DNA of 64,000 nucleotides, taken from assembly GCF_030658505.1 (NCBI RefSeq), contig NZ_JAUTXR010000109.1, positions 8,396-72,395 of the forward strand, in the 5' to 3' direction. The position numbers were made by a program, and so were the translations under genes. This document shows positions 32,108 through 50,820 of this stretch, one piece after another. Source of the DNA: Stenotrophomonas raiganjensis (SeqCode). Lineage in GTDB: Bacteria; Pseudomonadota; Gammaproteobacteria; Xanthomonadales; Xanthomonadaceae. A model generated the notes under the pieces. The model ran no database searches. It worked only from the letters and a program-made list of their open reading frames with translations, and was not told the origin of the DNA. The stretch's first letter is position 1, and each line of letters starts with the position of its first letter.

Positions 32108-35100
32108 TCACCACTGGATGCCGGCACCGACGGCCACACCGGCCTCGCCGCGGCTGTTGGTGGAACCACTGAACTTGTAGATCCAGCGGCCACCCTCGGA
32201 AACGCCCGAGATACCGACCGCCACGCCCGATTCACCGTTGTAGCTGCCGGCCGCGATCGAGGCCATGCTGCGGCCAGCTTCACTGGGCTGCGGCAGCGCC
32301 GCGGTGGCCATCGCCGAAGCGATACCGGCCGAGGCACGATTGTCGGTCTTGCGCAGGTCCCGCTCGAAGCCGCCCATGCGCTCGTCGGTGTAGGCCTTCG
32401 ACCAGTCCAGGGTCTGCGCCATGCCCGACTTCAACTGGTCGACGTTGACCGCGTCGGTGCCGGCGGTGCCGGCAGCAACGTTGCGCACCGTGGTCGGGCC
32501 GCTGCTGGTGCTGCCAAGGGTAACGCTGTTGTAGTTGGTGGCACCGTTGGTGGTGGTGTCGTAGCGGATCGTGCCCTGCTGCGAGGCCTGCAGCTGGCGC
32601 ACGTTGACCGCATCGGTGGCCTGCGAACCGTCGGCCACGTTGACCACCTGGCGTTCGGCACCGGCGGCACCGACCGAGACCGTGTTGGCCCGGTTCGCCA
32701 CCGAACCCGCACCCAGGGCCACCGAGTTGTCGGCCTGCGCCTGCGAACCATTGCCCAGCGCGGTGGAGTTGGCACCGGCTGCGGTGGAGCCTGCGCCACC
32801 GGCGGCCGAGTTGGCACCGCTGGCGGACGGATCAGCCAGGTTGTTGGTGTTGTTGGCACGGAAGCTGCCAGCCACGTTGGTGATGTTCTGGATCTTCTGG
32901 TCGGTGTAGGACTTGGACTGGTCGATGGCGTAGTTCACGCCATTCTTCAGCTGGCCGACGTTGGTTGCATCGTGATCGTCGGAGCCATCGGCGACGTGAG
33001 TGATCTTGCGCTCGCTGCCGGTGCTGCCGACCGAGACCTCACCTGCCGAGTTGCTGGCGCCGGTCTGGCCATAGGCACCGGTGTAGCCGCTCTGTGCACC
33101 GACGCTGGCGACCGAACCGGCACCCAGGGCCACGCTGTTGCCTGCACTGGCGCTGGCACCGTTGCCGACCGCCACGCTGTTCGCGCCCGCAGCGCTCGCC
33201 TGCGGGCCGACCGCCACCGCTTCGGCGCCCGCCGCCGTTGCAGCCGCCGCTGTCGAGTTCACCGCCAGGTAGGCACTGCCACCACCGCCGTTGGTGATGC
33301 GCTGGTTGAGCACCTTCAGCGAGCCATCCACTGCCGTGAAAGCAGCAGTGACATTGTTGTAGTCGCCGCTGGTGAAGGTGCCATCGGTGGCGATGCTGGA
33401 GATGCTGAACTTTGGTGCGGTCCACACGTTGGTGGTGCCGTCGTAGGCGGTGGTGCCGCCGAAGTAGTTGGCGATGGTGCTGTTGGTGCTGAACAGCTGG
33501 TCGCCAGTGATGGCATCACTGCTGCCGGCCTGGATGCTGCCGGCGGCGACGTTGGTGATCTTCACCGCGCCGGTACCGGTCCCCTTCAGTGTCACGCTGT
33601 TGAGCACGTTGCCGCTGCCGTCGACGTCGTACTTCACGGCCAGCTTGTCGATCTCGCCGGTCTGGTCAGCGACGTTGGCCAGCGAGTTGCTGACGGCATC
33701 GAAGGCGGTACCGACGTCGTTGTAACTGCCCTTGGTGACGGTGCCGTTGGCGGCGACGTTGTTGATCGAGTAGGTCGGTGCGGTCAGTACACCGCTCGCA
33801 TTGACCGCAGCACCACCACCGAGGTGGGTGGCCACGGCCTGGTTGGCGGCGAACAGCTGGGCGCCGTTGATGGCCTCGCTGCTGGTGGCGCTGACCTGGC
33901 CCGGGCCGAGGTTGCGCAGCGTGGTGGCGGTACCGGCCTGCCCCAGCGTAGCGCTGGCGTAGTTGACGCTGCCATCGCCGTTGAGGTCGTAGCGCAGCGC
34001 GCCCTGTTCCGATGCCTGCAGCTGGCCGACATTGACCGCGTCGGTCGCAGCAGTACCGGCCGCCATGTTGGTCACCTGGCGCTCGGCACCGGCGGCGCCG
34101 ATCGAGACCGAATTGGCACGGTCAGCGAGGCTGCCGGCACCCACCGCGATGCTGTTGGCGGCGGTGGCGCGTGCGTTGGTACCGACTGCGATCGAGTCGG
34201 TGCCGCTGGCCACGGCCTCGGTTCCGGTCGAATTCACCCGCAGGTACTTGGTGCCGCCGTTGCGGATATCGGTGATCTGCGTGTTGAGGTTGACCAGCGA
34301 GCCGTCGACCGCAGCGAAGGCATCGGTGGCGTTGTCGTACAGGCCCTTGGCGATGGCGCCACTGGTGGAGATGGTGCTGATCTCGAACAGCGGCGCGGTG
34401 AAGGCACCGCTGGCCGGATCGAACGCTGCACGCCCGCCGAAGAAGCTGGCAATGGCCGCATTGGTCGCCGCCAGCTGGCCACCGTTGACCGCTTCAAGGC
34501 TGCCCGCCGTGATCGCGCCACCGGCCAGGTTGCCGATGGTGGTGGTGCCGGTGCCCGCGCCAAGCGTGACACGACGGTAGTTCGGATTGCCGCCAGCATC
34601 CAGGTCGTAGGTGACGGCGGCATCGGCCACGCCGTTGATCAGGCTGATCGCACCCTTCAACTGGGCCACGTTGACCGCATCGGTGTTGACGCTGCCGGCA
34701 GCCACGTTGGTGATCTGGCGCTCGCCACCACCCGCAGTGCCCACCGACACTTCACCGGCCGAGACCTGCGGGGCGGTGAGTCCGTAGGCGCTGTAGCTGG
34801 CCTGCGCGCCGCGCAGCGCCGCCGACCGGTAGCCGAGGGCGACCGAGTTGGCCTGGTTGGAGGTCGATTCGGCACCGAGCAGGGTCTGGCCGTTGGCCGT
34901 GCCCACCGCGCTGTCGCCGACGATCACCGAATGGCCCATGCGTGCAGCGTAGTCGGCGGTCGGCACACCGGTCGGGTTGCTCGGGTCGTTGACCCCATCA
35001 CCCGGGAAGGCAACGTTGGCATCAACCTTCGGCAGCTCGTGACGTGCGTTGGCACCGATCACCACTTCCTTCGAACCGTTGGCGAACGCACCGTCGCCCA

Positions 35101-37162
35101 TCAGCACCTGGTAGTCCTGCGCGGCGTTGACCGCCCAGCACGAGATGTCAGCCAGGGCGATGTCCAGGCACTTGGCGGCCCAGGCAGGCGAATCCTTCGG
35201 CAGCAGCAGGCCCAGCAGGCCACCGGGGTTGCCGTTGTTGATGTTGTAGATGTAGCTGTCGGAGGTGACGCCACCGATCAGCGTCAGGTGCGAGCTGCCG
35301 CCGGTGACGGCACCGCCCAGGCCATTGAGCGTGCTGCCGACCGGCGACAGGTTCACCACCGGCAGGCCCAGCACGTTGACCGTCGAATAGGTCTGCATCA
35401 CGTTGGCGTTGCTGAGCTTGAGATTGCCGTTGCTCAGGTAGCCGTTGCCGCCGAACAGGCTGGTGGTGGTCGGCCCGATCAGCTGGCCGACGTTGCCGAC
35501 CAGACCGCCGGTGCCGATGATCAGGCCCGCATTCGGATCAGCCGGAGCCGGCGCCTTCGGGCTGGTCGGTGGAATCGCCGAGGGCTTGGTCAGGCCGAGA
35601 CCGCTCAGCGTGCCTCCGACCAGGCCACCTACGGCACTGCCGAGATTGCCGATGGTGCCGTTCAGATTGCCGTTGAGCAGGTTGCCCACGGCGCTGCCGA
35701 CGTTGCCAAGCGTGTTGCCCAGCAGGCCACCCAGGCCCCCGCTGCTGCCGCCGGTAGCGCCATTGAGCACACCGCCAACGGTGCCGCCCACCGCGCCCAC
35801 CGTGCTGTTGAGCGTGCCGCCCACTGCGCCGCCGACTGCGCCGACGGTTCCGTTCAGCGTGCCGCCCACCGTGCCGTTCAGTGCGCCACCCACGGTGCCG
35901 CCGACGGCACCGACAGTGCCAACCGCGCCGTTGAGCGTACCGCCCACGGTGCTTCCGACTGCACCAACGGTTCCGTTCAGCGCGCCGCCCACCGTGCCGC
36001 CGACGTTGCCGACCGTACCGTTCAGTGCGCCACCTACCGCGCTGCCCACCGTGCCAACGGTGCCGTTGAGTGCGCCGCCAACCGTGCCAACGGTGCCATT
36101 CAAAGCACCGCCGACTGCACTTCCGACAGTACCCACCGTGCCGTTCAGCGCGCCGCCGACTGCACTGCCAGCGGAGCCAACGACGCCGCCCACCAGGCCA
36201 CCGACACCCAGCGCACTGTTCTGCGCCGCCACAGTGGCCTGGCCCGCGAGCTTGAGGTTGCGGTCGGCCACCACCTCCTGGCCGTCCGGTGCCTGTACGC
36301 GTACCTTGCCGGCCACGCCGGCATCGAAGGCCGCGGTGATCGCACGATCGTGGGTCTCGCCCGGCAGTTCTTCCTTGGCCGGCAACGTGACCGCCGCCGT
36401 TGCCCTGGCCTGGCCCTGGCCATCGATCCGGTGGCCCGCCACCTTCAACTGCGAATCAAGCGTGCCGTCGACCGAGGCCTTCAGGCCAGGCACGGAACCG
36501 GCGGATGCGCCTCTGATGGCGGCCGCCGCCTTGGCCCCGGCATCGATCGAAGCAACCTGGCTGCCGGCGACACCGACATGGGCTTTCGCCCGCGCATCCG
36601 CAGCGACTGCGAGCGGCGCATGTGCGGACGGCGCAACCTGTGCCGCCAGCGATGCATCAACCTTCGCGCCATTGGCAGCCGCGTGACCCAACCCCACATT
36701 GGCACGGACATCGGCCGCCAGCGCCGGAACGGCGACCTGCTTCGGCGCGGCGTTCGCACCCAGCTTCACCTGCACCGTGGCCGGCAGCACGTCGCGCACC
36801 ACAGGCAACGCGTTCGTGCTCAGCTGCAGGCCGACACGCGCATCAGCACTGATTGCCGGGGTGCTCTGCGCCTGGCGCGCGGCGGCGGCCAGCGCCACTT
36901 CAGCGTCGACCTTGACCGGCATCGGCTGGGCGTACTTCGCCGCCAGCGCCTGCAGGTCGCGCAGCGACTGATTGGATTCGGATGCTCCTGCATGCCCACT
37001 GGCCAGCGCACACAGCAGGGCCAGGGCCAGTGCGGTCGGCATCAGCAGGACACTGCGCGGATCGCGGGCGGCGCTGCCGCCGCTGTCGCCGGTGGCCAGT
37101 TCCGAGGCCACAACCAGAGCATTGAGCTGGCGGTTCCATACACGCCGGTAGATGCGGTTCAT
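32108..37162 (-). CDS. Trimeric autotransporter adhesin (YadA/Ata type)
   Basis: 1684 residues. The N-terminus is an extended signal peptide (MNRIYRRVWNRQLNALVVAS), the ESPR of large type V proteins, with cleavage predicted near residue 60. An alanine- and lysine-rich region (to about 320) leads to a run of 15-residue-type units with GTVGTVGSAVGGALN periodicity. A passenger of YadA-like head repeats (NSVALGAGSVA, ANSIAVGAGSLADRANSVS) alternates with at least five neck motifs such as TDAVNVAQLK, HDATNVGQLK and TDAVNVDQLK. The last 80 residues form the membrane anchor, ending AGVAVGAGIQW. Trimeric surface adhesin; ligand unknown. The ATG at 37162 fits the GGGGGA ribosome-binding site 7 bases upstream. 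Confidence 0.95.
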   Translation of the reverse strand: MNRIYRRVWNRQLNALVVASELATGDSGGSAARDPRSVLLMPTALALALLCALASGHAGASESNQSLRDLQALAAKYAQPMPVKVDAEVALAAAARQAQSTPAISADARVGLQLSTNALPVVRDVLPATVQVKLGANAAPKQVAVPALAADVRANVGLGHAAANGAKVDASLAAQVAPSAHAPLAVAADARAKAHVGVAGSQVASIDAGAKAAAAIRGASAGSVPGLKASVDGTLDSQLKVAGHRIDGQGQARATAAVTLPAKEELPGETHDRAITAAFDAGVAGKVRVQAPDGQEVVADRNLKLAGQATVAAQNSALGVGGLVGGVVGSAGSAVGGALNGTVGTVGSAVGGALNGTVGTVGGALNGTVGTVGSAVGGALNGTVGNVGGTVGGALNGTVGAVGSTVGGTLNGAVGTVGAVGGTVGGALNGTVGGTLNGTVGAVGGAVGGTLNSTVGAVGGTVGGVLNGATGGSSGGLGGLLGNTLGNVGSAVGNLLNGNLNGTIGNLGSAVGGLVGGTLSGLGLTKPSAIPPTSPKAPAPADPNAGLIIGTGGLVGNVGQLIGPTTTSLFGGNGYLSNGNLKLSNANVMQTYSTVNVLGLPVVNLSPVGSTLNGLGGAVTGGSSHLTLIGGVTSDSYIYNINNGNPGGLLGLLLPKDSPAWAAKCLDIALADISCWAVNAAQDYQVLMGDGAFANGSKEVVIGANARHELPKVDANVAFPGDGVNDPSNPTGVPTADYAARMGHSVIVGDSAVGTANGQTLLGAESTSNQANSVALGYRSAALRGAQASYSAYGLTAPQVSAGEVSVGTAGGGERQITNVAAGSVNTDAVNVAQLKGAISLINGVADAAVTYDLDAGGNPNYRRVTLGAGTGTTTIGNLAGGAITAGSLEAVNGGQLAATNAAIASFFGGRAAFDPASGAFTAPLFEISTISTSGAIAKGLYDNATDAFAAVDGSLVNLNTQITDIRNGGTKYLRVNSTGTEAVASGTDSIAVGTNARATAANSIAVGAGSLADRANSVSIGAAGAERQVTNMAAGTAATDAVNVGQLQASEQGALRYDLNGDGSVNYASATLGQAGTATTLRNLGPGQVSATSSEAINGAQLFAANQAVATHLGGGAAVNASGVLTAPTYSINNVAANGTVTKGSYNDVGTAFDAVSNSLANVADQTGEIDKLAVKYDVDGSGNVLNSVTLKGTGTGAVKITNVAAGSIQAGSSDAITGDQLFSTNSTIANYFGGTTAYDGTTNVWTAPKFSISSIATDGTFTSGDYNNVTAAFTAVDGSLKVLNQRITNGGGGSAYLAVNSTAAAATAAGAEAVAVGPQASAAGANSVAVGNGASASAGNSVALGAGSVASVGAQSGYTGAYGQTGASNSAGEVSVGSTGSERKITHVADGSDDHDATNVGQLKNGVNYAIDQSKSYTDQKIQNITNVAGSFRANNTNNLADPSASGANSAAGGAGSTAAGANSTALGNGSQAQADNSVALGAGSVANRANTVSVGAAGAERQVVNVADGSQATDAVNVRQLQASQQGTIRYDTTTNGATNYNSVTLGSTSSGPTTVRNVAAGTAGTDAVNVDQLKSGMAQTLDWSKAYTDERMGGFERDLRKTDNRASAGIASAMATAALPQPSEAGRSMASIAAGSYNGESGVAVGISGVSEGGRWIYKFSGSTNSRGEAGVAVGAGIQW
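35600..36215 (-). repeat. Internal tandem repeats of the adhesin gene
   Basis: Degenerate units of about 33-45 bases encode blocks such as GGALNGTVGTVGSAV, GTVGGALNGTVGAVG and GTLNSTVGAVGG. The repeats preserve frame and vary by small insertions. This arrangement is prone to slippage and length variation between strains. Confidence 0.8.
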
Positions 37163-37191
37163 GAGCATTTCCCCCGTAGGCGAACAACTGG

Positions 37192-37230
37192 AATGTCAGT
37201 GGACTTGCCGCTAGGCAGGTGACTGACATT
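37192..37230 (-). promoter_or_regulatory. 39-bp dyad in the adhesin leader
   Basis: The outer arms AATGTCAGT (37192-37200) and ACTGACATT (37222-37230) are perfect. The inner arms ACTTGCC and GGCAGGT pair with one mismatch around GCTA. It ends about 30 bases upstream of the adhesin ATG and 12 bases before its ribosome-binding site, so it is either an mRNA stem-loop or a large operator. Confidence 0.55.
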
Positions 37231-37260
37231 TCAGCGTCTGCAACGGTGGCCGCGCACTTC

Positions 37261-37365
37261 ATTCCGGCACGGCAATCGCGCATTCCGGCAAATCCACGGC
37301 CGGATTCGGCAGCCGGTTATGCAGAAGCGGCAACCATATCGGCAAGCGGATATGCAATTCCGGCA
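37261..37365. promoter_or_regulatory. Array of CGGCA half-sites with 21-bp period
   Basis: ATTCCGGCA occurs exactly at 37261, 37282 and 37357; ATTCGGCA at 37304; ATATCGGCA at 37336; and AGCGGCA ending at 37332. Counting the final A of CGGCA, the positions are 37269, 37290, 37311 and 37332 (steps of 21), then 37344 and 37365 (step of 21). AraC-type proteins bind direct repeats with this spacing, and an AraC-type gene starts its 3' end 33 bases away. The array lies about 100-200 bases upstream of the adhesin ATG. Confidence 0.6.
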
Positions 37366-37397: not shown

Positions 37398-38381
37398 TCA
37401 GGCCGGCTGGCCGATCTGCGCCGGTGCACGCATCAGCGTGTCGCGGGGAAGTTCGCCGAACACCTTGCGGTAGTTGTCGGCGAAGCGGGACAGGTCCCAC
37501 AGGCCGCAGCTGAGGGCGATGGCCTTCACCGAGCGGCGGCTGGAATCGGCCATCGACAGGCTGCGGCAGGCGGCACACAGGCGCAGCATCGACAGGTAGC
37601 GGTTGGGCGAGGTGCCGAACAGATCCTCGAAGGCATAGCGCAGGCCACGCTCGCTGACGCCCGCGGCATCGCAGATTTCATTCATGTAGATATTGCGGCG
37701 CAGGTTGAGCCGCATGAAATTCTCCGCCCGCTGCGCGATCAGATAATGGGTACGCCGCGCGCGGCTGCATCCAGGCCGATCAGCAGCACCGGCACCGAGC
37801 AGGGCCTGCACGTGTTCGTGCAGCAGCCTCTCGGTTTCTTCCGGCTGCAGGCTCGCACCCTGCCCCAACTGCAGGTGCAGCTGCTGGTAATGCTGCGCGA
37901 GCGGGATGGTTTCGCTGGCCAGATTGAACAACGACAGCGCCTGGCCTGCCGGAGGCGTACTGCGCAGGCTCAGTTCGGTCAGCTTGCGCTGCACCCGTGC
38001 CACCGGCACCAGCATCAACGTCATGTGCGTTCCCGGGCTGAGCGTGAACTCGCTGATGCCTTCGGGCATCACCGTCAACGCCATGCCGGGGGTAAGCGGC
38101 ACGCCGTGGCACCAGCTCAGCGTTTCATCGGTTGCGTGCAGATACCCCAGCATCGCCCAGTCCGGCGGCAGCATGAATCGGCCACGGCAATGGAAGCCGC
38201 AGCTGATGCTGCAGAACAAGGCCTCTTCATGCACGCGCGAAGCGAAGGCCGCCCGGGGGCCGTTGCCATCGAGCAGAAGCAGTTCGACATCGCACACACG
38301 AAGCACGCCGCTCAGCGTCGCCAGGTCGATCGACCGCAGGCCGCTGTCGTCGCTGTCTCCTACCCCACCACCATCGACCAT
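37398..38381 (-). CDS. AraC-family transcriptional regulator
   Basis: 327 residues from the ATG at 38381 (GGGGGGA 10 bases upstream); the frame stays open further upstream but is not protein-like. The N-terminal 200 residues form a ligand or dimer domain without a recognised family motif, rich in strands (HGVPLTPGMALTVMPEGISEF). The C-terminal two helix-turn-helix motifs are clear: NIYMNEICDAAGVSERGLRY and VKAIALSCGLWDLSRFADNY, with the final FGELPRD. It precedes the adhesin gene on the same strand with 235 bases between, filled by a 21-bp-period array. It is probably the direct regulator of adhesin expression. Confidence 0.85.
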   Translation of the reverse strand: MVDGGGVGDSDDSGLRSIDLATLSGVLRVCDVELLLLDGNGPRAAFASRVHEEALFCSISCGFHCRGRFMLPPDWAMLGYLHATDETLSWCHGVPLTPGMALTVMPEGISEFTLSPGTHMTLMLVPVARVQRKLTELSLRSTPPAGQALSLFNLASETIPLAQHYQQLHLQLGQGASLQPEETERLLHEHVQALLGAGAADRPGCSRARRTHYLIAQRAENFMRLNLRRNIYMNEICDAAGVSERGLRYAFEDLFGTSPNRYLSMLRLCAACRSLSMADSSRRSVKAIALSCGLWDLSRFADNYRKVFGELPRDTLMRAPAQIGQPA

Positions 38382-38613
38382 GACAGTGTCGTCCCCCCGT
38401 TGATCCGCCACACGGTGCAGCCCCCACTGCCTGACAGGGCCACGCCATTCCAGGAACCGCTGCTGCTGCCCGGGCGGCTGCGGCCGATGCCACGCGGCCA
38501 CCCAGGAGAATACGAGAGCTTGAATACGAGTATGCCCGATAATCCATCCCGGCAAACCCGAAAGCCTGCAATGAAGAAAACAGATACACAGGTGAAGAAA
38601 ATGTCCGCGGCAC

Positions 38614-38629: not shown

Positions 38630-38942
38630 TGCGCCAACAAAGTGGAATCACATTATCTACACGTCGATGAATCGTTTTGCATGGGAACGGATTGCCGTCA
38701 CAGAAAAGGACTGAAGATTTAAGGGCAGGCGAGTTTCTGCCGAATTTGCATATAGGTTCCGGTTGCAGCCAACCGCCATTCAGGCAAAGTCGATATCACG
38801 GTGATCCGGTCGTCAGGACGGCCGCACCCAGGGGGACAGCATGGCCATGCACATATCGCTCGATACCACGACCACCGGCCCCACGCCGCGCGGTCGCGAT
38901 CGCGCGAACGGCGTCCCGCCTGGAAGCGATCACCCTGCTTGA

Positions 38943-39331: not shown

Positions 39332-39877
39332 ATGACACTGCTGGGGTTGTTGGCCATTGCCCTGTGCCTGCGGATCACCATCAGTGACCTGTACGCACGC
39401 CGCGTGCCCAATGCCTGGCTGCTGGCCACATCCGCACTTGCCGTCCTGCTGCTTGTCACCGGCCAGTTCAACGCGCCGCGCCTGCCGTGGTTGCCCCACG
39501 TTGCCGGCGCGGCGCTGGGCCTGATGGCACTGCTGCCGTTCTACGCGTTGCGATGGATGGGCGCCGGCGATGTCAAGTTCTTCTGCGTACTGGGACTGAT
39601 GCTGGGCTGGCAGGCGTTGCTGCCGATCTGGATCGCAGCCAGCCTGGCCGCCGGCGCACATGCAGCGCTGGTGCTGGCTTCGCGCCGGCTGCGCTGGATG
39701 CTGCCGCTCGGGCTGCAGGCCCAGGTAAGCCGAGCCAATGCACATTGGCATTCGCATCCGGCGCTTCGCGGCATGCAGAGCGCGCGGCAGGGACGACGCG
39801 GCATTCCCTACGCCGCCTACCTGGCACTGGCCGCCATCGGTTGGATCCTCTTCAGTACGTACGGAGGCCTGGCATGA
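39332..39877 (+). CDS. cpaA: Tad prepilin peptidase (TadV/CpaA)
   Basis: 181 residues, all membrane helices, of the A24 aspartate peptidase family. The catalytic aspartates are Asp19 (ITISDLYARRVPN) and Asp80 in WMGAGDVKFF, the GxGD signature. The N-terminal methyltransferase domain of PilD is absent, as usual for TadV/CpaA. It cleaves the leaders of Flp and the TadE-type pseudopilin. A region of about 35 basic, non-membrane residues (VSRANAHWHSHPALRG) sits before the last helix. Its stop overlaps the tadE start by 4 bases. Confidence 0.92.
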   Translation: MTLLGLLAIALCLRITISDLYARRVPNAWLLATSALAVLLLVTGQFNAPRLPWLPHVAGAALGLMALLPFYALRWMGAGDVKFFCVLGLMLGWQALLPIWIAASLAAGAHAALVLASRRLRWMLPLGLQAQVSRANAHWHSHPALRGMQSARQGRRGIPYAAYLALAAIGWILFSTYGGLA

Positions 39878-40350
39878 ACATCCAACGTCCACGGCTGCAA
39901 CGAGGCGTGATCAGCATCGAGTTCGCCCTGATGCTGATGCTGGGCCTGCTGCCGCTGCTGCTGTTCACCTTCTCCGGCGTGATGATCATGGCGGCGCAGC
40001 AGACCCTGGCGACGGCCTCCGCCGAAGGGGCGCGCGCATCACTGCGCTACGGCACGGCCAGTGAACGGCGCACGGCAGCCTGCATTGCGGCCCGCAGTTC
40101 AATGCAGTGGCTGCTGAACTTCTCCGGACAGCCCGTCGATTGCAGCAACGGCGGCAGCAATGCCATCACGGTATCCGCACAGGCCCCCTGCGCCGGTCTG
40201 GCCAGCGCCCAGTGCATGACCGTGACGGTCAGCTACGACTACGCCAGCCATCCCTTCCTGCCCGGCACCGCCACGCTCTACAAGTGGGTGATGCGGGCTC
40301 CCATCCGCAGCGTCGCAGTCGCCCAGCTCGACCTTGGCAGCGGCAACTGA
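39874..40350 (+). CDS. tadE: TadE-type pseudopilin
   Basis: 158 residues. A basic N-terminus and prepilin-like junction QRGVISIEFALMLML, with glutamate in the +5 region, lead into one hydrophobic helix. The rest is periplasmic with four cysteines (AACIAARS, VDCSNGG, APCAGLASAQC) that may form disulfides. TadE-like minor pilins are processed by TadV and needed for pilus assembly. It is translationally coupled to cpaA through ATGA. Confidence 0.87.
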   Translation: MNIQRPRLQRGVISIEFALMLMLGLLPLLLFTFSGVMIMAAQQTLATASAEGARASLRYGTASERRTAACIAARSSMQWLLNFSGQPVDCSNGGSNAITVSAQAPCAGLASAQCMTVTVSYDYASHPFLPGTATLYKWVMRAPIRSVAVAQLDLGSGN

Positions 40351-40372
40351 CGATCGGTACAGGAGACGGTTC

Positions 40373-41410
40373 ATGCTCAAGTTGACCCGCATCGCCGCCA
40401 TCGCCCTGATCGGGCTGGCTGTGCTGCTGGCCCTGGTGGCCCTGATGATCGGGCGCAAGCCGGCGGCGCCCACCACGGTCACCGCGGTTGCCCCCAGCGA
40501 AGCCCAGGCCATCACCGTGGTCGAAGCCGTTGCGCGCCTCCCGGCCGGCGAACCGATCACTGCCAATGGCGTGCGCCTCGCGCGGCGCAACGCACCTGTC
40601 GCTGGCGCCGCCTCCAGCGTTTCCGCAGTGATCGGCAAGGTGCCGGTGCAGGATATCGCCGAAGGTACCGCGATCAGCACCAGCGGCCTCGCGCAGGGAT
40701 TTTCGCTGCAGCTGCGTCCGGGCGAGCGTGCACTGGCCGTTCCGGTGGATGAACTGGTGGGCGCCGGCAACCGCATCCTGCCGGGGGATTTCGTCGACGT
40801 CTTCCTCAACCTGCGCAACGCCCAGCCCAACGCCAACGGTCCGGGCGAAGCTGCACAGACCCGCCTGTTGCTCTCACGGCTGAGAGTACTGAGCTATGGC
40901 CAGCAGGACATCGCGCCGGCCGCCAGCGATACCGTCGCCAGTAGTGAAGGCGACAACCGCAACGATCCGCGCGCCGCGGACATCACTGGCAACGGCGGCA
41001 ACCACGGCACTGGCAACGAGCCCCCGCAGCCGGCGCGCAGTGCGGTGCTGGCCGTACCGGTGGCCGATGCCAACCGGCTGCTGCTGGGCGCGCAGCAGGG
41101 CAAGCTGTTCCTGGCCCTGCGCAATCCCGCCGATACCGGCCTCCCCGACCTCGCCCTGTTCCCGCAGGCGCGCGGGGTCATCGATCCGCTGCGCGGCCTG
41201 GACGCGGAGCAGCAGCTCGCGCTGCAGCGCCCGGAGAACCATGCCTTCGCGGGGATCGATGGCGATGGCCTGGCCGGTCGTGGCAACACGCCGGCGCGCA
41301 GCACTCCGGACACTGCAGCGCGTGCGCCGGCACCACGACGCAGTGCTCCGCGCGCGTCAGGTATCGAGATCATCCGCGGCGACAGTTCCGCCCCACGTGG
41401 TTCCCTTTGA
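40373..41410 (+). CDS. cpaB: Tad pilus assembly protein CpaB (RcpC)
   Basis: 345 residues. One N-terminal membrane helix (IAAIALIGLAVLLALVALMI) is followed by a SAF/beta-clip domain (VVEAVARLPAGEPITANGV) and a C-terminal RcpC region (LRPGERALAVPVDELVGAG, RILPGDFVDVFLNL). The last 70 residues are disordered and rich in Ala, Arg and Pro. CpaB/RcpC is thought to contact the secretin or peptidoglycan in the periplasm. I chose the ATG at 40373, preceded by AGGAGACGG. Confidence 0.92.
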   Translation: MLKLTRIAAIALIGLAVLLALVALMIGRKPAAPTTVTAVAPSEAQAITVVEAVARLPAGEPITANGVRLARRNAPVAGAASSVSAVIGKVPVQDIAEGTAISTSGLAQGFSLQLRPGERALAVPVDELVGAGNRILPGDFVDVFLNLRNAQPNANGPGEAAQTRLLLSRLRVLSYGQQDIAPAASDTVASSEGDNRNDPRAADITGNGGNHGTGNEPPQPARSAVLAVPVADANRLLLGAQQGKLFLALRNPADTGLPDLALFPQARGVIDPLRGLDAEQQLALQRPENHAFAGIDGDGLAGRGNTPARSTPDTAARAPAPRRSAPRASGIEIIRGDSSAPRGSL

Positions 41411-41428
41411 CCTGCATCGAGCGCATCC

Positions 41429-42787
41429 ATGACCCAACGTCGCCGCAGTCCACGCCGTTCCCCCCGCCAGTGCTGGCTGGCCCTGCTGCTGGTGCTGCTG
41501 GCACCGGCGACAAGCGTGGCCGCCGACGATCTGGTCCTGCAGGCGCGCGAGCAGCGCCCGTGGACGTTGCCCAACGATCTGGAACGGGTCGCGATTGCCG
41601 ACCCGGGCGTGGCCGACATCGTGATGCTGCGCGGCCAGCGTCAGGCCCTGCTGGTCGGCAAGGCACCCGGTACGACCACCCTGCTGCTGTGGCACCGCAG
41701 GCAGGCCGAGCCCCAGCGCCTGCAGGTGCGCGTGCAGAGCGCGGTACAGGGTGCCGCCGATGCCGGCGCAAGCGGCCTGGTGTTCACCCAGCAGGACAAC
41801 CAGGGCCTGCTGCAGGGAAGCACCGACAGCGTGCTCTCGCACATGCAGGAACAGAAGACCGCCGCCATGGCGCTGGGCAAGGACGGCCTGCTTGCCGATG
41901 CCTCGACAGTCAGCAGTGGCGGCGTGGTCCAGGTCGAGGTCAAGGTGGTCGAGTTCAACAAGACCGCGCTCAAGCAGATCGGCATCAGCTTCCAGAACCG
42001 CAATGGCAGCTTCGCCTACGGCTTCGCCCGGCCCGGCGGCCAGCTGCCCGGCAACACCGGCATCCTGCCCGGCATGAAGGAAGGCAACTCCAGCAACGAA
42101 TCCGAGTCTCCGATCTCGTCGGCCTTCCGGTTGGTGTTCGGCTCGACCAAGGGCCTGTGGAACGCCGACGTCGACCTGCTGCAGAGCAACGGCATGGCAC
42201 GCGTGCTGGCCGAACCGACCCTGGTTGCCCTGTCCGGCCAGAGCGCCAGCTTCCTCGCCGGTGGCGAACTGCCGATCCTCGAGCCCCAGGGCCTTGGCAC
42301 CACCACCATCACCTACAAGCCGTTCGGTATCGGCCTGACCGTAACCCCGACGGTGCTGGCGCCCAACCGCATCGCACTGAAGGTGGCGCCGGAAGCCAGC
42401 GATCTGGACTACAGCAACTCCATCGCACTCAACGGGGTGCAGATACCCTCCATCACGACCCGCCGCGCCGACACCACGGTGGAACTGGGCGACGGCGAGA
42501 GTTTCGTGATCGGCGGCCTGGTCAGTTCGAATACGGTCTCCAACGTCGACAAGATCCCCCTGCTGGGTGACCTGCCGATCATCGGCTCGTTCTTCCGCAG
42601 CGTTGATTACAAGCGCCAGGACAAGGAGCTGGTGATCATCGTCACGCCACGGCTGGTGCAGCCGCTGGCACGCAACACCGAGCTGCCGCTGCCTGGCGAG
42701 CGCGAGGCCAAGCCCCACCTGCCCGAATGGGGCGCGTGGCTGCTTGGCCCGATCAGCCAGGACCCGGTGCCCGGTTTCTCACGCTGA
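41429..42787 (+). CDS. cpaC: Tad secretin (CpaC/RcpA)
   Basis: 452 residues. Signal peptide to about residue 32 (APATSVAADD), an N-terminal pilus-secretin domain (WTLPNDLERVAIADPGVAD), then the secretin core (VVQVEVKVVEFNKTALKQIG, FLAGGELPILEPQG, VELGDGESFVIGGLVSS, KIPLLGDLPIIGSFFRS). It forms the multimeric outer-membrane channel through which the Flp fibre passes. The protein ends in about 40 polar residues after the core. The gap to cpaB is 18 bases. Confidence 0.95.
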   Translation: MTQRRRSPRRSPRQCWLALLLVLLAPATSVAADDLVLQAREQRPWTLPNDLERVAIADPGVADIVMLRGQRQALLVGKAPGTTTLLLWHRRQAEPQRLQVRVQSAVQGAADAGASGLVFTQQDNQGLLQGSTDSVLSHMQEQKTAAMALGKDGLLADASTVSSGGVVQVEVKVVEFNKTALKQIGISFQNRNGSFAYGFARPGGQLPGNTGILPGMKEGNSSNESESPISSAFRLVFGSTKGLWNADVDLLQSNGMARVLAEPTLVALSGQSASFLAGGELPILEPQGLGTTTITYKPFGIGLTVTPTVLAPNRIALKVAPEASDLDYSNSIALNGVQIPSITTRRADTTVELGDGESFVIGGLVSSNTVSNVDKIPLLGDLPIIGSFFRSVDYKRQDKELVIIVTPRLVQPLARNTELPLPGEREAKPHLPEWGAWLLGPISQDPVPGFSR

Positions 42788-42859
42788 TTCCATGATGCCT
42801 GCGATACCACGCCCATGCCCTACGCCACCGCCCAGCCACTGCATCCGCAAGGACCACCG

Positions 42860-44071
42860 ATGAATCTGGTCCTGTACGGAATGGATCGCGAACTGCTGCC
42901 CCGGCTGGCGGCCAAGCTGCCGCCGACCACGACCCTGCACTGGCAGGACAGCAGCACCCCGACCTCGGCGCAGGACCTGCAGCGTGGACCGCAGAGCCTG
43001 GTGCTGCTCGATTTCCGCCCGGAGCACGCGGCCGCTTCAAGCGTGCTTGCACAGCAGCTGCAGCAGACCGAACCGGACCTGATGCTGGTTGCTGTCGGTG
43101 CCACCAGCGCCGGCCAGGTGGAAGGCGTGGTCATGGCCCTGCGCGTCGGCCTGCGCGATGTCCTGGACCTGGACAGCGACAACGTCGGCATCGAAGCGGC
43201 ATTGCGCCGCGCGCTGTCGCCGCGGCCGGCGGCCGCCGCACAGCATGCGCACAAGGCACGCTTGATCGTGCTGCTGGGCGTACGTGCCGGCGTCGGCACC
43301 AGCACGCTGGCCGCGCACCTGTCGGTGCTGGCACAGCAGACACGGGCACTGGCCCAGGGCGAATCGCTGCAGCAGGATGGCCTGCTGATGGAACTGGCGC
43401 AGCCATCGGGCGATCTGGCGCTGTACCTCAACCTGGACAGCCGCTTCCACTACGAAGATGCGCTGCGCAATGCCAGCCGCATCGATGCCACCCTCGCCCG
43501 CACCGCGATGGCGCGCCACGATACCGGGCTGGTCCTGCTGGACCGCGCCAGCGGCAGCGACGCGGTACCGCCCTCCGATCCAGGCGCATTGCTGCAACGC
43601 CTGCGCGGCGTGTTCGCCAGCGTACTGTGCGACGCAGGGGGCTGCCCGCTGCGGCAGCTGCCGCCCCTGCTGCTGGACCAGGCTGACGAGATCTGGCTGG
43701 TCACCGATGCCTCGATCGCCACCCTCGTGTCGCTGGATCAGGCCCTGAAGCACCTGGCCGGCCAGCGCGAGCGCGAGAAGCGGCTGCAACTGGTGATCAA
43801 CCGCCACGACGACAGCAGTGGCATGAGCCCAGAGCAGATCGCGCGCCGCTTCGAGCTGCCACTGCTGGCCACCCTGCCCGAACGCTCGCGCGTGCGCCTG
43901 GCCGCCAGCCAGGGCCACCTGCTGCTGCAGGACGCGCCGCGCGACCCCTATCTGCGTGCCCTCGCCCCGCTCGTCCCGCGCCTGGACCCGGCCGCCTGCC
44001 CGGTCCAGGCGCATGGCCTGCGGGAAAGACTCTCCCTTGCCCTGGGTGGATCGCAATGGAAGACAAGGTAA
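42860..44071 (+). CDS. cpaE: TadZ/CpaE-type ParA-like localisation protein
   Basis: 403 residues. An N-terminal receiver-like domain (MNLVLYGMDRELLPRLAAK; VVMALRVGLRDVLDLDSDN) is followed by a MinD/ParA-type domain. Its P-loop reads LLGVRAGVGTSTLAAHL, so the conserved KGGxGKT lysines are missing and only the glycines and the following Ser/Thr remain. TadZ proteins with degenerate P-loops are known to mark the pole and recruit the TadA ATPase. I chose the ATG at 42860 because AAGGA lies 6 bases upstream; an earlier ATG at 42815 lacks one. The stop overlaps cpaF by 16 bases. Confidence 0.9.
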   Translation: MNLVLYGMDRELLPRLAAKLPPTTTLHWQDSSTPTSAQDLQRGPQSLVLLDFRPEHAAASSVLAQQLQQTEPDLMLVAVGATSAGQVEGVVMALRVGLRDVLDLDSDNVGIEAALRRALSPRPAAAAQHAHKARLIVLLGVRAGVGTSTLAAHLSVLAQQTRALAQGESLQQDGLLMELAQPSGDLALYLNLDSRFHYEDALRNASRIDATLARTAMARHDTGLVLLDRASGSDAVPPSDPGALLQRLRGVFASVLCDAGGCPLRQLPPLLLDQADEIWLVTDASIATLVSLDQALKHLAGQREREKRLQLVINRHDDSSGMSPEQIARRFELPLLATLPERSRVRLAASQGHLLLQDAPRDPYLRALAPLVPRLDPAACPVQAHGLRERLSLALGGSQWKTR

Positions 44072-48669: not shown

Positions 48670-50820
48670 ATGAAACGCCCACGCCAGTTCAGTTTCAGCC
48701 GCCCGCGCGGCGGCATGTCGATCACCATGATGCTGGTCATGCTGGCATTGCTGGCGATGCTGGGCCTGATCGAAATCGGCTATCTGTTCTGGGCCAAGCG
48801 AGACGCGCAGAAGGTCGCTGACCTGGCCGCACTGGCCGGTGCGCAGCGGCTGGAGCTGTGCACCTCGGACAACAGCGACAACAGCGCAGCGCGGCAAAGC
48901 GCGATCACCCAGAACAAGTTCGCAGGCACCCTGCAGATCCGCTGCGGCAACTGGAGCGCTGCACGCGGCACGCCGAACCGCTTCGTCACCACCGTGGATG
49001 CGAGCAATCCGCGCAATGCCGTGCAGGTGATCGCGCAACGCAGCGTGCTGCCGTTCTTCGGCCAGAACACCCGCCTGCCCACCGTCAGCGTGGAAGCCGT
49101 GGCTCGCCGCTCGGAACCCACGGCCGTGTTCGCGGTGGGTTCGCAGCTGCTGCGCACCAACGGCGACTCGGTCCTGCTGTCGACCCTGCGCCTGGTGGGC
49201 CTGGATGTCACCAATGCCACCGTGCTCTCCTATGACGGCCTGGCCCAGGCCAACATCACTCCGTCGGGCCTGCTCAAGGCGTTGAACATCCCGGTCAGTG
49301 CCAATCTCAGCGTGGCCGACTTCAACCGGCTGCTGTCGGTCAACAAGATCTCGCTGGCACAGCTGGTCGATGCCACCGCTACCGTGGTCGGTCGCGATAC
49401 CACCGTGGGCGTGCAGCTGCGCGCCCTGTCCGACCTGGTCGCCACCCAGCTGGACATCAACAAGCTCAACATCGTGCTCGGCAGCCAGTCCGGCGGCGGC
49501 GGCCTGTTCGCCGAAGTCGTATCGCCGGATGGCACCGTCGGCAGCGCACTGGAAACCAAGGTCAACGTCCTCAACCTGATCAGCACCGCCATCTCCATCG
49601 CCAACGATGGCAACGGTGTGGCAGTGAAGGGACTGGACCTGCTGGGCATCAACATCCAGGCCGGCGTGGTCGAGCCACCCTCGATCGCCATCGGCGGCGT
49701 CGGCACGCGTGCGTACAACGCGCAGGTGCGGCTGATGGTGGATGTGGACAGCAACAACCTGTTCGCGCTGGGGCCGCTGCTGAATCTGCTCGGCACGCGC
49801 CTGCACCTGCCGCTGCATGTCGATGTCGCCAACGCGATGGGCACGCTGACCAGCATCCAGTGCGGTGCCAGTCCGCCCAAGGCCACCATCCAGGTCGATT
49901 CATCGGTGCTGCGCGCCTGTGTCGGCAACGTCGATCCCACGCAGCGCTTTTCCAAGAGCAATGTCTGTGATGCGACCCTGCAGAACGAGCAGCTGCTGAA
50001 GCTGCTCGGGCAACCCTTGATCAACGACAGGATCACCCTGCCGGCGCTGACCAGCTCGCAGAACCTGACCCTGGCCGCCGGCGAGACCGGCTCGACCCGG
50101 ATCAACCCGCTGGCACTGGGCAATGCCGTATCGGACCTGGTCAATGAACTGCTGCGCGTGCTGTCGGGCATGCTCAGCTCACCCAAGCAGGGCATGAGCG
50201 CCAACGACACCGCCAAGGCACTGGCCGACCGCTACCTGCAGGCGGCATTTCCCACGGGCGGGCGCTACAACGTCGATCAGGTCATCCCGTTGCTGCGCGA
50301 TGGCGATCCGTCGCGCAACCTCGCGCCGTTGGGCAACTGGACGGTGAAGAACGGCGTGCCCAAGCCCTGCCTGCTGGGCCTGACCACCTGCTGGGAAGAC
50401 GGCTCGGTGTGGACCGGCTACAAGACGACCGTCACCGGACAGGGCCTGGGCCTGCTTGATGGCCTGCTGGGCTCGCTGGTCGGCGGCCTGCTGATCAACC
50501 GCTGCGACAGCCTGCTCGGCAACCTGATCGACTACAACGGCTGCGTGCGCAACAACCTGGCCTCCTACATCCAGACCGCGCCGGCCGGCTTCCTCGATGG
50601 CGCCGGTGGAACCGGCGTCACCAACCCGGACGGCAGCGTGAGCTGCAGCGGCCTGCTGTGCACGCTGCTGAAGCCGATCCTGGCCGCGCTGCGCCCCGTG
50701 CTCAACAGCGTCGGCACCCTGCTGACCAACCTGCTGGCCAGCGTACTGGGCCTGGAACTGGGGCGGACCGACGTCAACGTGCAGTCGATCCAGTGCAGCG
50801 CCGCACAGCTGGTCTATTGA
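48670..50820 (+). CDS. tadG: TadG-type protein, large
   Basis: 716 residues. The N-terminus is TadE/G-like: a basic stretch, then SITMMLVMLALLAMLGLIEI and the acidic AKRDAQKVADLAALAGAQRL. The remaining 650 residues are periplasmic or extracellular, with many Leu/Gly/Asn strand segments (SVDSNNLFALGPLL-like repeats) and several paired cysteines. No von Willebrand A motif is obvious, unlike many TadG proteins. It is last in the operon and is followed by a hairpin. Perhaps it forms a tip or anchor component; this is inferred from its position and leader only. Confidence 0.8.
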   Translation: MKRPRQFSFSRPRGGMSITMMLVMLALLAMLGLIEIGYLFWAKRDAQKVADLAALAGAQRLELCTSDNSDNSAARQSAITQNKFAGTLQIRCGNWSAARGTPNRFVTTVDASNPRNAVQVIAQRSVLPFFGQNTRLPTVSVEAVARRSEPTAVFAVGSQLLRTNGDSVLLSTLRLVGLDVTNATVLSYDGLAQANITPSGLLKALNIPVSANLSVADFNRLLSVNKISLAQLVDATATVVGRDTTVGVQLRALSDLVATQLDINKLNIVLGSQSGGGGLFAEVVSPDGTVGSALETKVNVLNLISTAISIANDGNGVAVKGLDLLGINIQAGVVEPPSIAIGGVGTRAYNAQVRLMVDVDSNNLFALGPLLNLLGTRLHLPLHVDVANAMGTLTSIQCGASPPKATIQVDSSVLRACVGNVDPTQRFSKSNVCDATLQNEQLLKLLGQPLINDRITLPALTSSQNLTLAAGETGSTRINPLALGNAVSDLVNELLRVLSGMLSSPKQGMSANDTAKALADRYLQAAFPTGGRYNVDQVIPLLRDGDPSRNLAPLGNWTVKNGVPKPCLLGLTTCWEDGSVWTGYKTTVTGQGLGLLDGLLGSLVGGLLINRCDSLLGNLIDYNGCVRNNLASYIQTAPAGFLDGAGGTGVTNPDGSVSCSGLLCTLLKPILAALRPVLNSVGTLLTNLLASVLGLELGRTDVNVQSIQCSAAQLVY

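Follow-up and report, generated by a model that had tools for sequence, protein, structure and literature searches.

A conserved array of TGCCG half-sites in 21-bp phase, the putative operator of an AraC/XylS-type switch for a trimeric autotransporter adhesin of Stenotrophomonas

At the araBAD promoter of Escherichia coli, the AraC half-sites I1 and I2 are spaced by 21 bp and the -10 element begins 37 bp after the start of I2. For XylS at the Pm promoter, the accessible text of PMC5481539 gives boxes of the form TGCA-N6-GGTA in two 15-bp repeats. The MtlR-controlled promoter PmtlE has two 15-bp direct-repeat blocks, from -72 to -58 and from -50 to -36, upstream of the -35 element (PMC4514859, in its accessible sections), and AggR at fimbrial promoters has its site 21–22 bp upstream of the -10 element (PMC6392122, likewise). 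The array of direct repeats described here, situated between a regulator gene and an adhesin gene of Stenotrophomonas raiganjensis, is real and deeply conserved. The adjacent AraC-type protein is its putative binder and very probably controls one adhesin gene, judged by sequence comparison.

Both genes are located on the minus strand of the window, i.e. the whole stretch of 64,000 nucleotides analysed here, and the functional reading of the boxes is therefore TGCCG. On this strand TGCCG occurs six times with steps of 21, 12, 21, 21 and 21 bp, 3' of the regulator stop codon and 5' of the adhesin start, within an intergenic gap of 229 bp. Four of these boxes, in exact 21-bp steps from 37332 to 37265, constitute the core array. 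The features are as follows:

37398..38381, minus strand: AraC/XylS-type regulator gene, 327 aa (open frame; Pfam HTH_18 and HTH_AraC over cut-off)
37361..37365, minus strand: extra box, TGCCG, another 21 bp upstream, S. maltophilia complex only
37340..37344, minus strand: extra box, TGCCG, 12 bp upstream of box 1, S. maltophilia complex only
37333..37365, minus strand: 33-bp extension holding both extra boxes
37328..37332, minus strand: box 1 of the core array, TGCCG (sequence and alignment of loci)
37307..37311, minus strand: box 2, TGCCG, without any variation among the 36 representatives
37286..37290, minus strand: box 3, TGCCG, 21 bp from box 4
37265..37269, minus strand: box 4, TGCCG, the promoter-proximal box of the core array
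37228..37233, minus strand: -10-like hexamer TGAAAT, 36 bp from the start of box 4
37192..37230, minus strand: inverted repeat AATGTCAGT...ACTGACATT, between the -10-like block and the adhesin start
32108..37168, minus strand: trimeric autotransporter adhesin gene, 1686 aa (Pfam ESPR, YadA_head, YadA_stalk and YadA_anchor)

The original prediction had listed six CGGCA ends at 37269, 37290, 37311, 37332, 37344 and 37365, and these coordinates agree with ours. The identical 9-mer ATTCCGGCA is indeed found three times, at 37261, 37282 and 37357, and these are its only copies on both strands of the 64-kb window. All six CGGCA sites are present, but a seventh copy at 37270–37274 had been missed; it is not conserved and is absent, for instance, in locus L033.

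When the 229-bp intergenic region was shuffled 5000 times with its dinucleotides preserved, seven CGGCA copies never appeared, nor did a chain of at least three boxes at 21 bp, and among 1000 shuffles no 5-mer at all was chained four times at any step from 8 to 40. When the four-box pattern was searched in the whole window with up to three mismatches, three matches were obtained versus 0.10 expected. Two of these are the array itself in overlapping registers, and the third lies at 48924 with three mismatches. TGCCG pairs and triples by themselves are not rare. The pair TGCCG-N16-TGCCG occurs 287 times in the whole genome, compared to 107 times for the reversed control pattern, and a three-box match is present somewhere in 90 of the 91 genomes of the genus. 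The exact four-box pattern was found in 75 out of 395 genomes of the family sample; thus, four boxes alone are not diagnostic. Among 30 four-box loci outside the genus, the -10-like block and an adhesin start are present only in L110 and L111, both in genomes carrying an orthologue of the regulator, and the remaining 28 have neither (the true array of genome G433 is L168, which is outside this set). All 30, L110 and L111 included, are located in stop-free frames of at least 183 codons, hence open frames cannot separate true arrays from others. One locus, L086 of G127, consists of a 21-bp tandem repeat starting TGCCGGAATCC, which gives eight overlapping four-box matches and is unrelated to the regulator.

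A strict signature, consisting of two boxes, N31 and TGWAAT, was scanned in the 91 genus genomes. It is found in 60 of them with one match each, 56 of these being the locus described here; the four matches elsewhere (G014, G069, G072 and G076) were taken as chance. A wider regulon was considered and rejected on the basis of this single match per genome. The signature is present at 56 of 79 regulator loci and so misses 23 true ones, which means that weaker targets could escape it. With regard to autoregulation, no 21-bp TGCCG pair was found on either strand in up to 500 bp upstream of the regulator match in the 36 representatives (19,080 bp). Plasmid records gave no match to the region.

Conservation of the array was followed through three levels of relationship. 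An orthologue of the regulator is present in 79 out of 91 Stenotrophomonas genomes (E 4e-96 or better), and the best match in the other 12 has an E value of 4e-16. In the regions downstream of the regulator at these 79 loci (the window, L004–L032 and L115–L163), the array was found in all 79, with 21-bp steps throughout; 70 arrays are exact and nine have one mismatch. An ESPR-type adhesin start follows the array in 74 of the 79 (73 by pattern, L163 by hand). L147, L148 and L150–L152 have kept regulator and array with no adhesin start in the stretch examined, L147 retaining a start-like remnant, judged by eye. Hence array and adhesin can come apart, and these five loci fit a loss of the target after the switch had evolved.

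In the family sample of 395 genomes the regulator is found at E≤1e-30 in 40, of which 10 are outside the genus. Among the latter, four boxes with no more than one mismatch are present in seven, G142 keeps three, and in G431 and G440 the regulator is present and the arrays are degenerate. The order sample (299 genomes) yielded 46 regulator matches at E≤1e-40, with 28 in a second family, taken as Rhodanobacteraceae because the named loci with the same array belong to Rhodanobacter and Fulvimonas. Four boxes are present in six of these 28 (five of them exact), and three in L184. A score of 17 out of 20 box bases is background for the long regions scanned in this family; L184 was counted on the basis of its three exact boxes plus TCTAAT at 36 bp. 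At the other 21 matches the array was not found in the fetched region (that of L179 is not fully readable), most of them having a regulator identity of 49% or less. L182 is a true exception, with regulator (51%) and adhesin present and the array absent. A scan of 84,980 species genomes with regulator peptide patterns, which reaches close relatives only, gave 32 loci from Stenotrophomonas, Rhodanobacter, Fulvimonas, a Lysobacteraceae MAG and two bracketed Pseudomonas names. Outside Stenotrophomonas, the array recurs in further genera and in a second family, at regulator identities as low as 51%, with some exceptions. As had been anticipated, the CGGCA sites and the 21-bp steps are kept across genera while the spacers drift. 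The array also accompanies the neighbouring AraC-type gene, at all 79 genus loci and again beyond the genus. At L184 and its neighbours L186–L195, a distant relative of the regulator adjoins a different gene, LD-carboxypeptidase-like by eye, as is the case in many second-family genomes; L184 keeps its three boxes beside this neighbour.

From 121 loci, among which some genomes appear twice, 36 representatives of less than 85% identity were derived; a paralogue (L174, 39%) was excluded from the 121, and for L164, L172 and L173 the anchor was set anew by hand at the -10-like block. Mean information over the 36 amounts to 1.80 bits in the box columns and 0.65 bits in the spacers. Unit 1 has the clearest second element, a G at unit position 11 and CAT at positions 14–16, and AraC-type half-sites such as those of AraC have their second box at about this place. 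The first step of the array is 20 bp in L058. The distance from the regulator stop to box 1 is 15–554 bp in the representatives and 10–583 bp in the 79 genus loci, and box 4 is followed by the adhesin start after 92–150 bp (31 representatives with a recognised start). In L031, L032, L115 and L117, which fall into one clade of the tree, about 550–580 bp separate the regulator stop from box 1, and the array remains with the adhesin promoter. In 11 of the 36 representatives (L049, L056, L057, L128, L130, L144, L147, L149, L150, L152 and L160) an inverted CGGCA is located 2–4 bp ahead of box 1, forming a short palindrome.

The original prediction had taken the change of phase after the fourth site to suggest two binding blocks. 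As a design, this is not supported, since the 12-bp offset stems from the 33-bp extension and the four-box form is the widespread one. Of the 121 loci, 47 have the two distal boxes at this offset, and in every one of these the regulator is 94.6–100% identical to that of the window. In a tree of 46 regulator genes (regulators below 76% identity were excluded, as were L033–L052 and L063, likely second copies) the 29 carriers of the extension make up one side of a single branch (SH-aLRT 99, quick method). On this tree, the extension is a derived character, gained once in the S. maltophilia complex. The upstream and the core copy of the 33 bp agree in 21 of 33 bases in the window, 10 of which belong to boxes, and the four-box relative L049 matches the core copy of the window at 30 of 33 positions, versus 24 of 33 for the upstream copy. 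In its simplest reading the extension probably arose by tandem duplication of unit 1 together with 12 bp. As 33 bp correspond to about 3.1 helical turns, the extra boxes come to lie on roughly the same face of the helix.

The -10-like hexamer begins 36 bp from the start of box 4 in 34 of the 36 representatives and 37 bp from it in two. It follows the pattern T-N-T/A/G-A-N-T or CG-T/A-AAT, the most frequent variants being TGTAAT (10/36), TGAAAT (7/36), TGTACT (5/36) and TCTAAT (4/36); strict TNTAAT is present in 17. The second position is a G in 28 of the 36, which is poor for sigma-70. If the hexamer is the -10 element and a 17-bp spacer is assumed, the -35 element falls at positions 13–18 after the start of box 4, at the end of the fourth half-site, where no -35 consensus was found in the 36 representatives. 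Together, the lack of a good -35 and the G in second place of the hexamer suggest a promoter which depends on an activator. Of the hallmarks of class II promoters, direct-repeat half-sites about 21 bp apart are found here. The proximal half-site, which would overlap the -35 element, is at a fixed 36–37 bp to the -10-like hexamer (36/36 representatives). From half-site position 16 to the hexamer there are about 20 bp. By analogy, the distance to the -10-like block fits AraC-family activation in a class II layout.

Inverted repeats are present between the -10-like block and the adhesin start of L056, L061, L153 and L168 at the same place as in the window, and were considered as a possible leader hairpin. 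In several clades the Shine-Dalgarno sequence can pair with the arm that directly follows the hexamer, with GCTCCC/GGGAGC in L056, GGCCTC/GAGGCC in L153 and CCCCCC/GGGGGG in L168. For an 8-base stretch beginning at position 42 past box 4, complementarity to the own Shine-Dalgarno sequence exceeds that to the others' (p 0.001, 33 representatives, relatedness uncontrolled), and arms starting at 34 and 40 gave p 0.0014 and 0.0012 in the same test. Folding energies are mostly unremarkable, with a mean z of -1.3 from position 42 (10 of 33 below -2) and of -0.5 from position 48 (4 of 33 below -2). An arm complementary to the Shine-Dalgarno sequence conflicts with the expected transcription start: with the hexamer as -10, most of the arm from position 42 would lie outside the transcript.

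The adjacent gene had been read as encoding an AraC-type protein, and Pfam HTH_18 scores 67.7 bits here, with a cut-off of 33.6. The C-terminal DNA-binding domain with two helix-turn-helix motifs which characterises the AraC/XylS family is present. A GTG at 38651 upstream also opens the frame; the ATG at 38381 is preferred because in many genomes the similarity among orthologues begins near 38399. The structure model (pLDDT 85.5, alignment of 48 rows) combines an N-terminal part rich in beta strands with seven helices in the C-terminal part. Over the DNA-binding domain it matches 3mn2_A with a TMt of 0.82, and over the whole length CuxR, ToxT and Rns rank first among PDB entries, with low TM-scores. 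No Pfam N-terminal domain and no NCBIfam model reaches its cut-off, the best partial NCBIfam matches being AndR and EutR. Relatives are annotated in some sources as ethanolamine operon activator and otherwise generically. EutR identity was rejected, the score being 55.9 bits versus an equivalog cut-off of 319, and the name ethanolamine operon activator is therefore unsupported. The c-di-GMP-binding motif of CuxR and VfmE is an N-terminal RxxxR, according to the part of PMC9045272 at hand. Sensing of c-di-GMP, prompted by the CuxR match, likewise found no support: the regulator has no N-terminal RxxxR, its sole RxxxR being at 224 in the DNA-binding half. Given the low TM-scores, the CuxR match tells little about a ligand. 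Frames beside the regulator, on the plus strand of the window at about 39332–44071, appear by eye to be Tad/Flp pilus-like (prepilin peptidase, pilus assembly proteins).

In the adhesin, ESPR, head, stalk and YadA anchor all exceed their Pfam cut-offs, as expected for a trimeric autotransporter, and the conserved ESPR start MNRIYRRVW is at 37162. The genome has four genes with a YadA anchor, and in the 350 bp preceding the first Met of each of the remaining three no 21-bp TGCCG pair was found on either strand.

In our opinion the array probably serves as operator in a local switch, and there are good grounds to expect that an AraC/XylS-type activator on four (in the window six) phased half-sites turns on one adhesin gene. 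One regulator monomer would occupy each TGCCG-headed half-site through its two helix-turn-helix motifs, with neighbouring monomers following one another in tandem along the same helix face. At the promoter-proximal half-site the monomer would overlap the -35 region and recruit RNA polymerase to the weak promoter, so that the trimeric autotransporter would be made when the regulator is active. We infer binding, activation as opposed to repression, oligomerisation and a ligand for the N-terminal domain. The same anatomy would serve a regulator that binds the array as a repressor of the adhesin, or that activates or represses it according to a ligand, with monomers next to the -35 region blocking the polymerase, and box 4 does overlap the expected -35. 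We regard repression as rather unlikely, since the spacing is that of activator promoters (AggR, PMC6392122, as far as its accessible sections go), a -35 consensus is missing and the boxes are located upstream of the -10-like block and not over it.

It is very improbable, as far as comparison of the loci can tell, that the array is bound by some other transcription factor, with the AraC-type gene a neighbour by chance. The five loci which keep array and regulator without an adhesin start could speak for it, as each of the two may persist for a reason of its own. Against it stand the position of the array next to the regulator gene, seen at all 79 genus loci and again beyond the genus, the fact that among the 30 four-box loci outside the genus a -10-like block with adhesin start occurs only beside the regulator (two loci), and the 21-bp direct repeats as such, which are the binding mode of the AraC family (AraC; XylS, in the accessible text of PMC5481539). 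Since 21 is divisible by three, the period might also reflect a seven-codon repeat, or a neutral tandem repeat such as the 21-bp TGCCG repeat of G127 in the same family. We give hardly any credence to this: even the best frame across the array is open in 28 of the 36 representatives and interrupted in the others, so that the period is not a seven-codon repeat, and outside the boxes the units are strongly unlike each other. Activation by the adjacent regulator thus is the reading we prefer. Within it, we put forward with considerable reserve that the monomers might form a same-face oligomer, four of them (six in the S. maltophilia complex) acting as a steep switch for a single, very large adhesin, whose half-site number is evolvable and was raised once by a 33-bp duplication that roughly keeps the helical phase. 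If true, this would be a mode of the AraC family beyond the usual dimer.

The titles and abstract openings of the open-licence literature contain no apparent treatment of this regulator, array or adhesin, nor AraC-type sites comparable in number or in phase. Relatives with three, four and six boxes offer a deeply conserved natural test of phasing and half-site number in an AraC-type switch, and a likely regulator can be named for a large adhesin on the surface of an opportunistic pathogen. An AraC-type regulator beside a surface-protein gene is also known from the YSIRK-adjacent surface-antigen regulators (TIGR04094), there in other bacteria and with other surface proteins, and this model gives a weak partial match to the regulator (18.5 bits, cut-off 200). 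The control of adhesins by AraC-family proteins is shared with AggR and with Rns, which is among the structure matches of the regulator. According to the accessible sections of PMC6392122, however, one correctly placed site suffices for AggR and many genes are controlled, whereas here the strict signature matches once per genome. MtlR at PmtlE differs by its two blocks 22 bp apart and its role in mannitol metabolism (accessible text of PMC4514859). With XylS at Pm and AraC at I1-I2 the array shares direct-repeat half-sites located upstream of the core promoter; there they are bound by monomers with two helix-turn-helix motifs, as is proposed for the array. In these systems there are two half-sites, in contrast to the four of the array, six in the window, and to its target, an adhesin. 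Judged by its layout, the array very probably works as the class II promoters of the AraC/XylS family do, with four to six phased half-sites instead of two.
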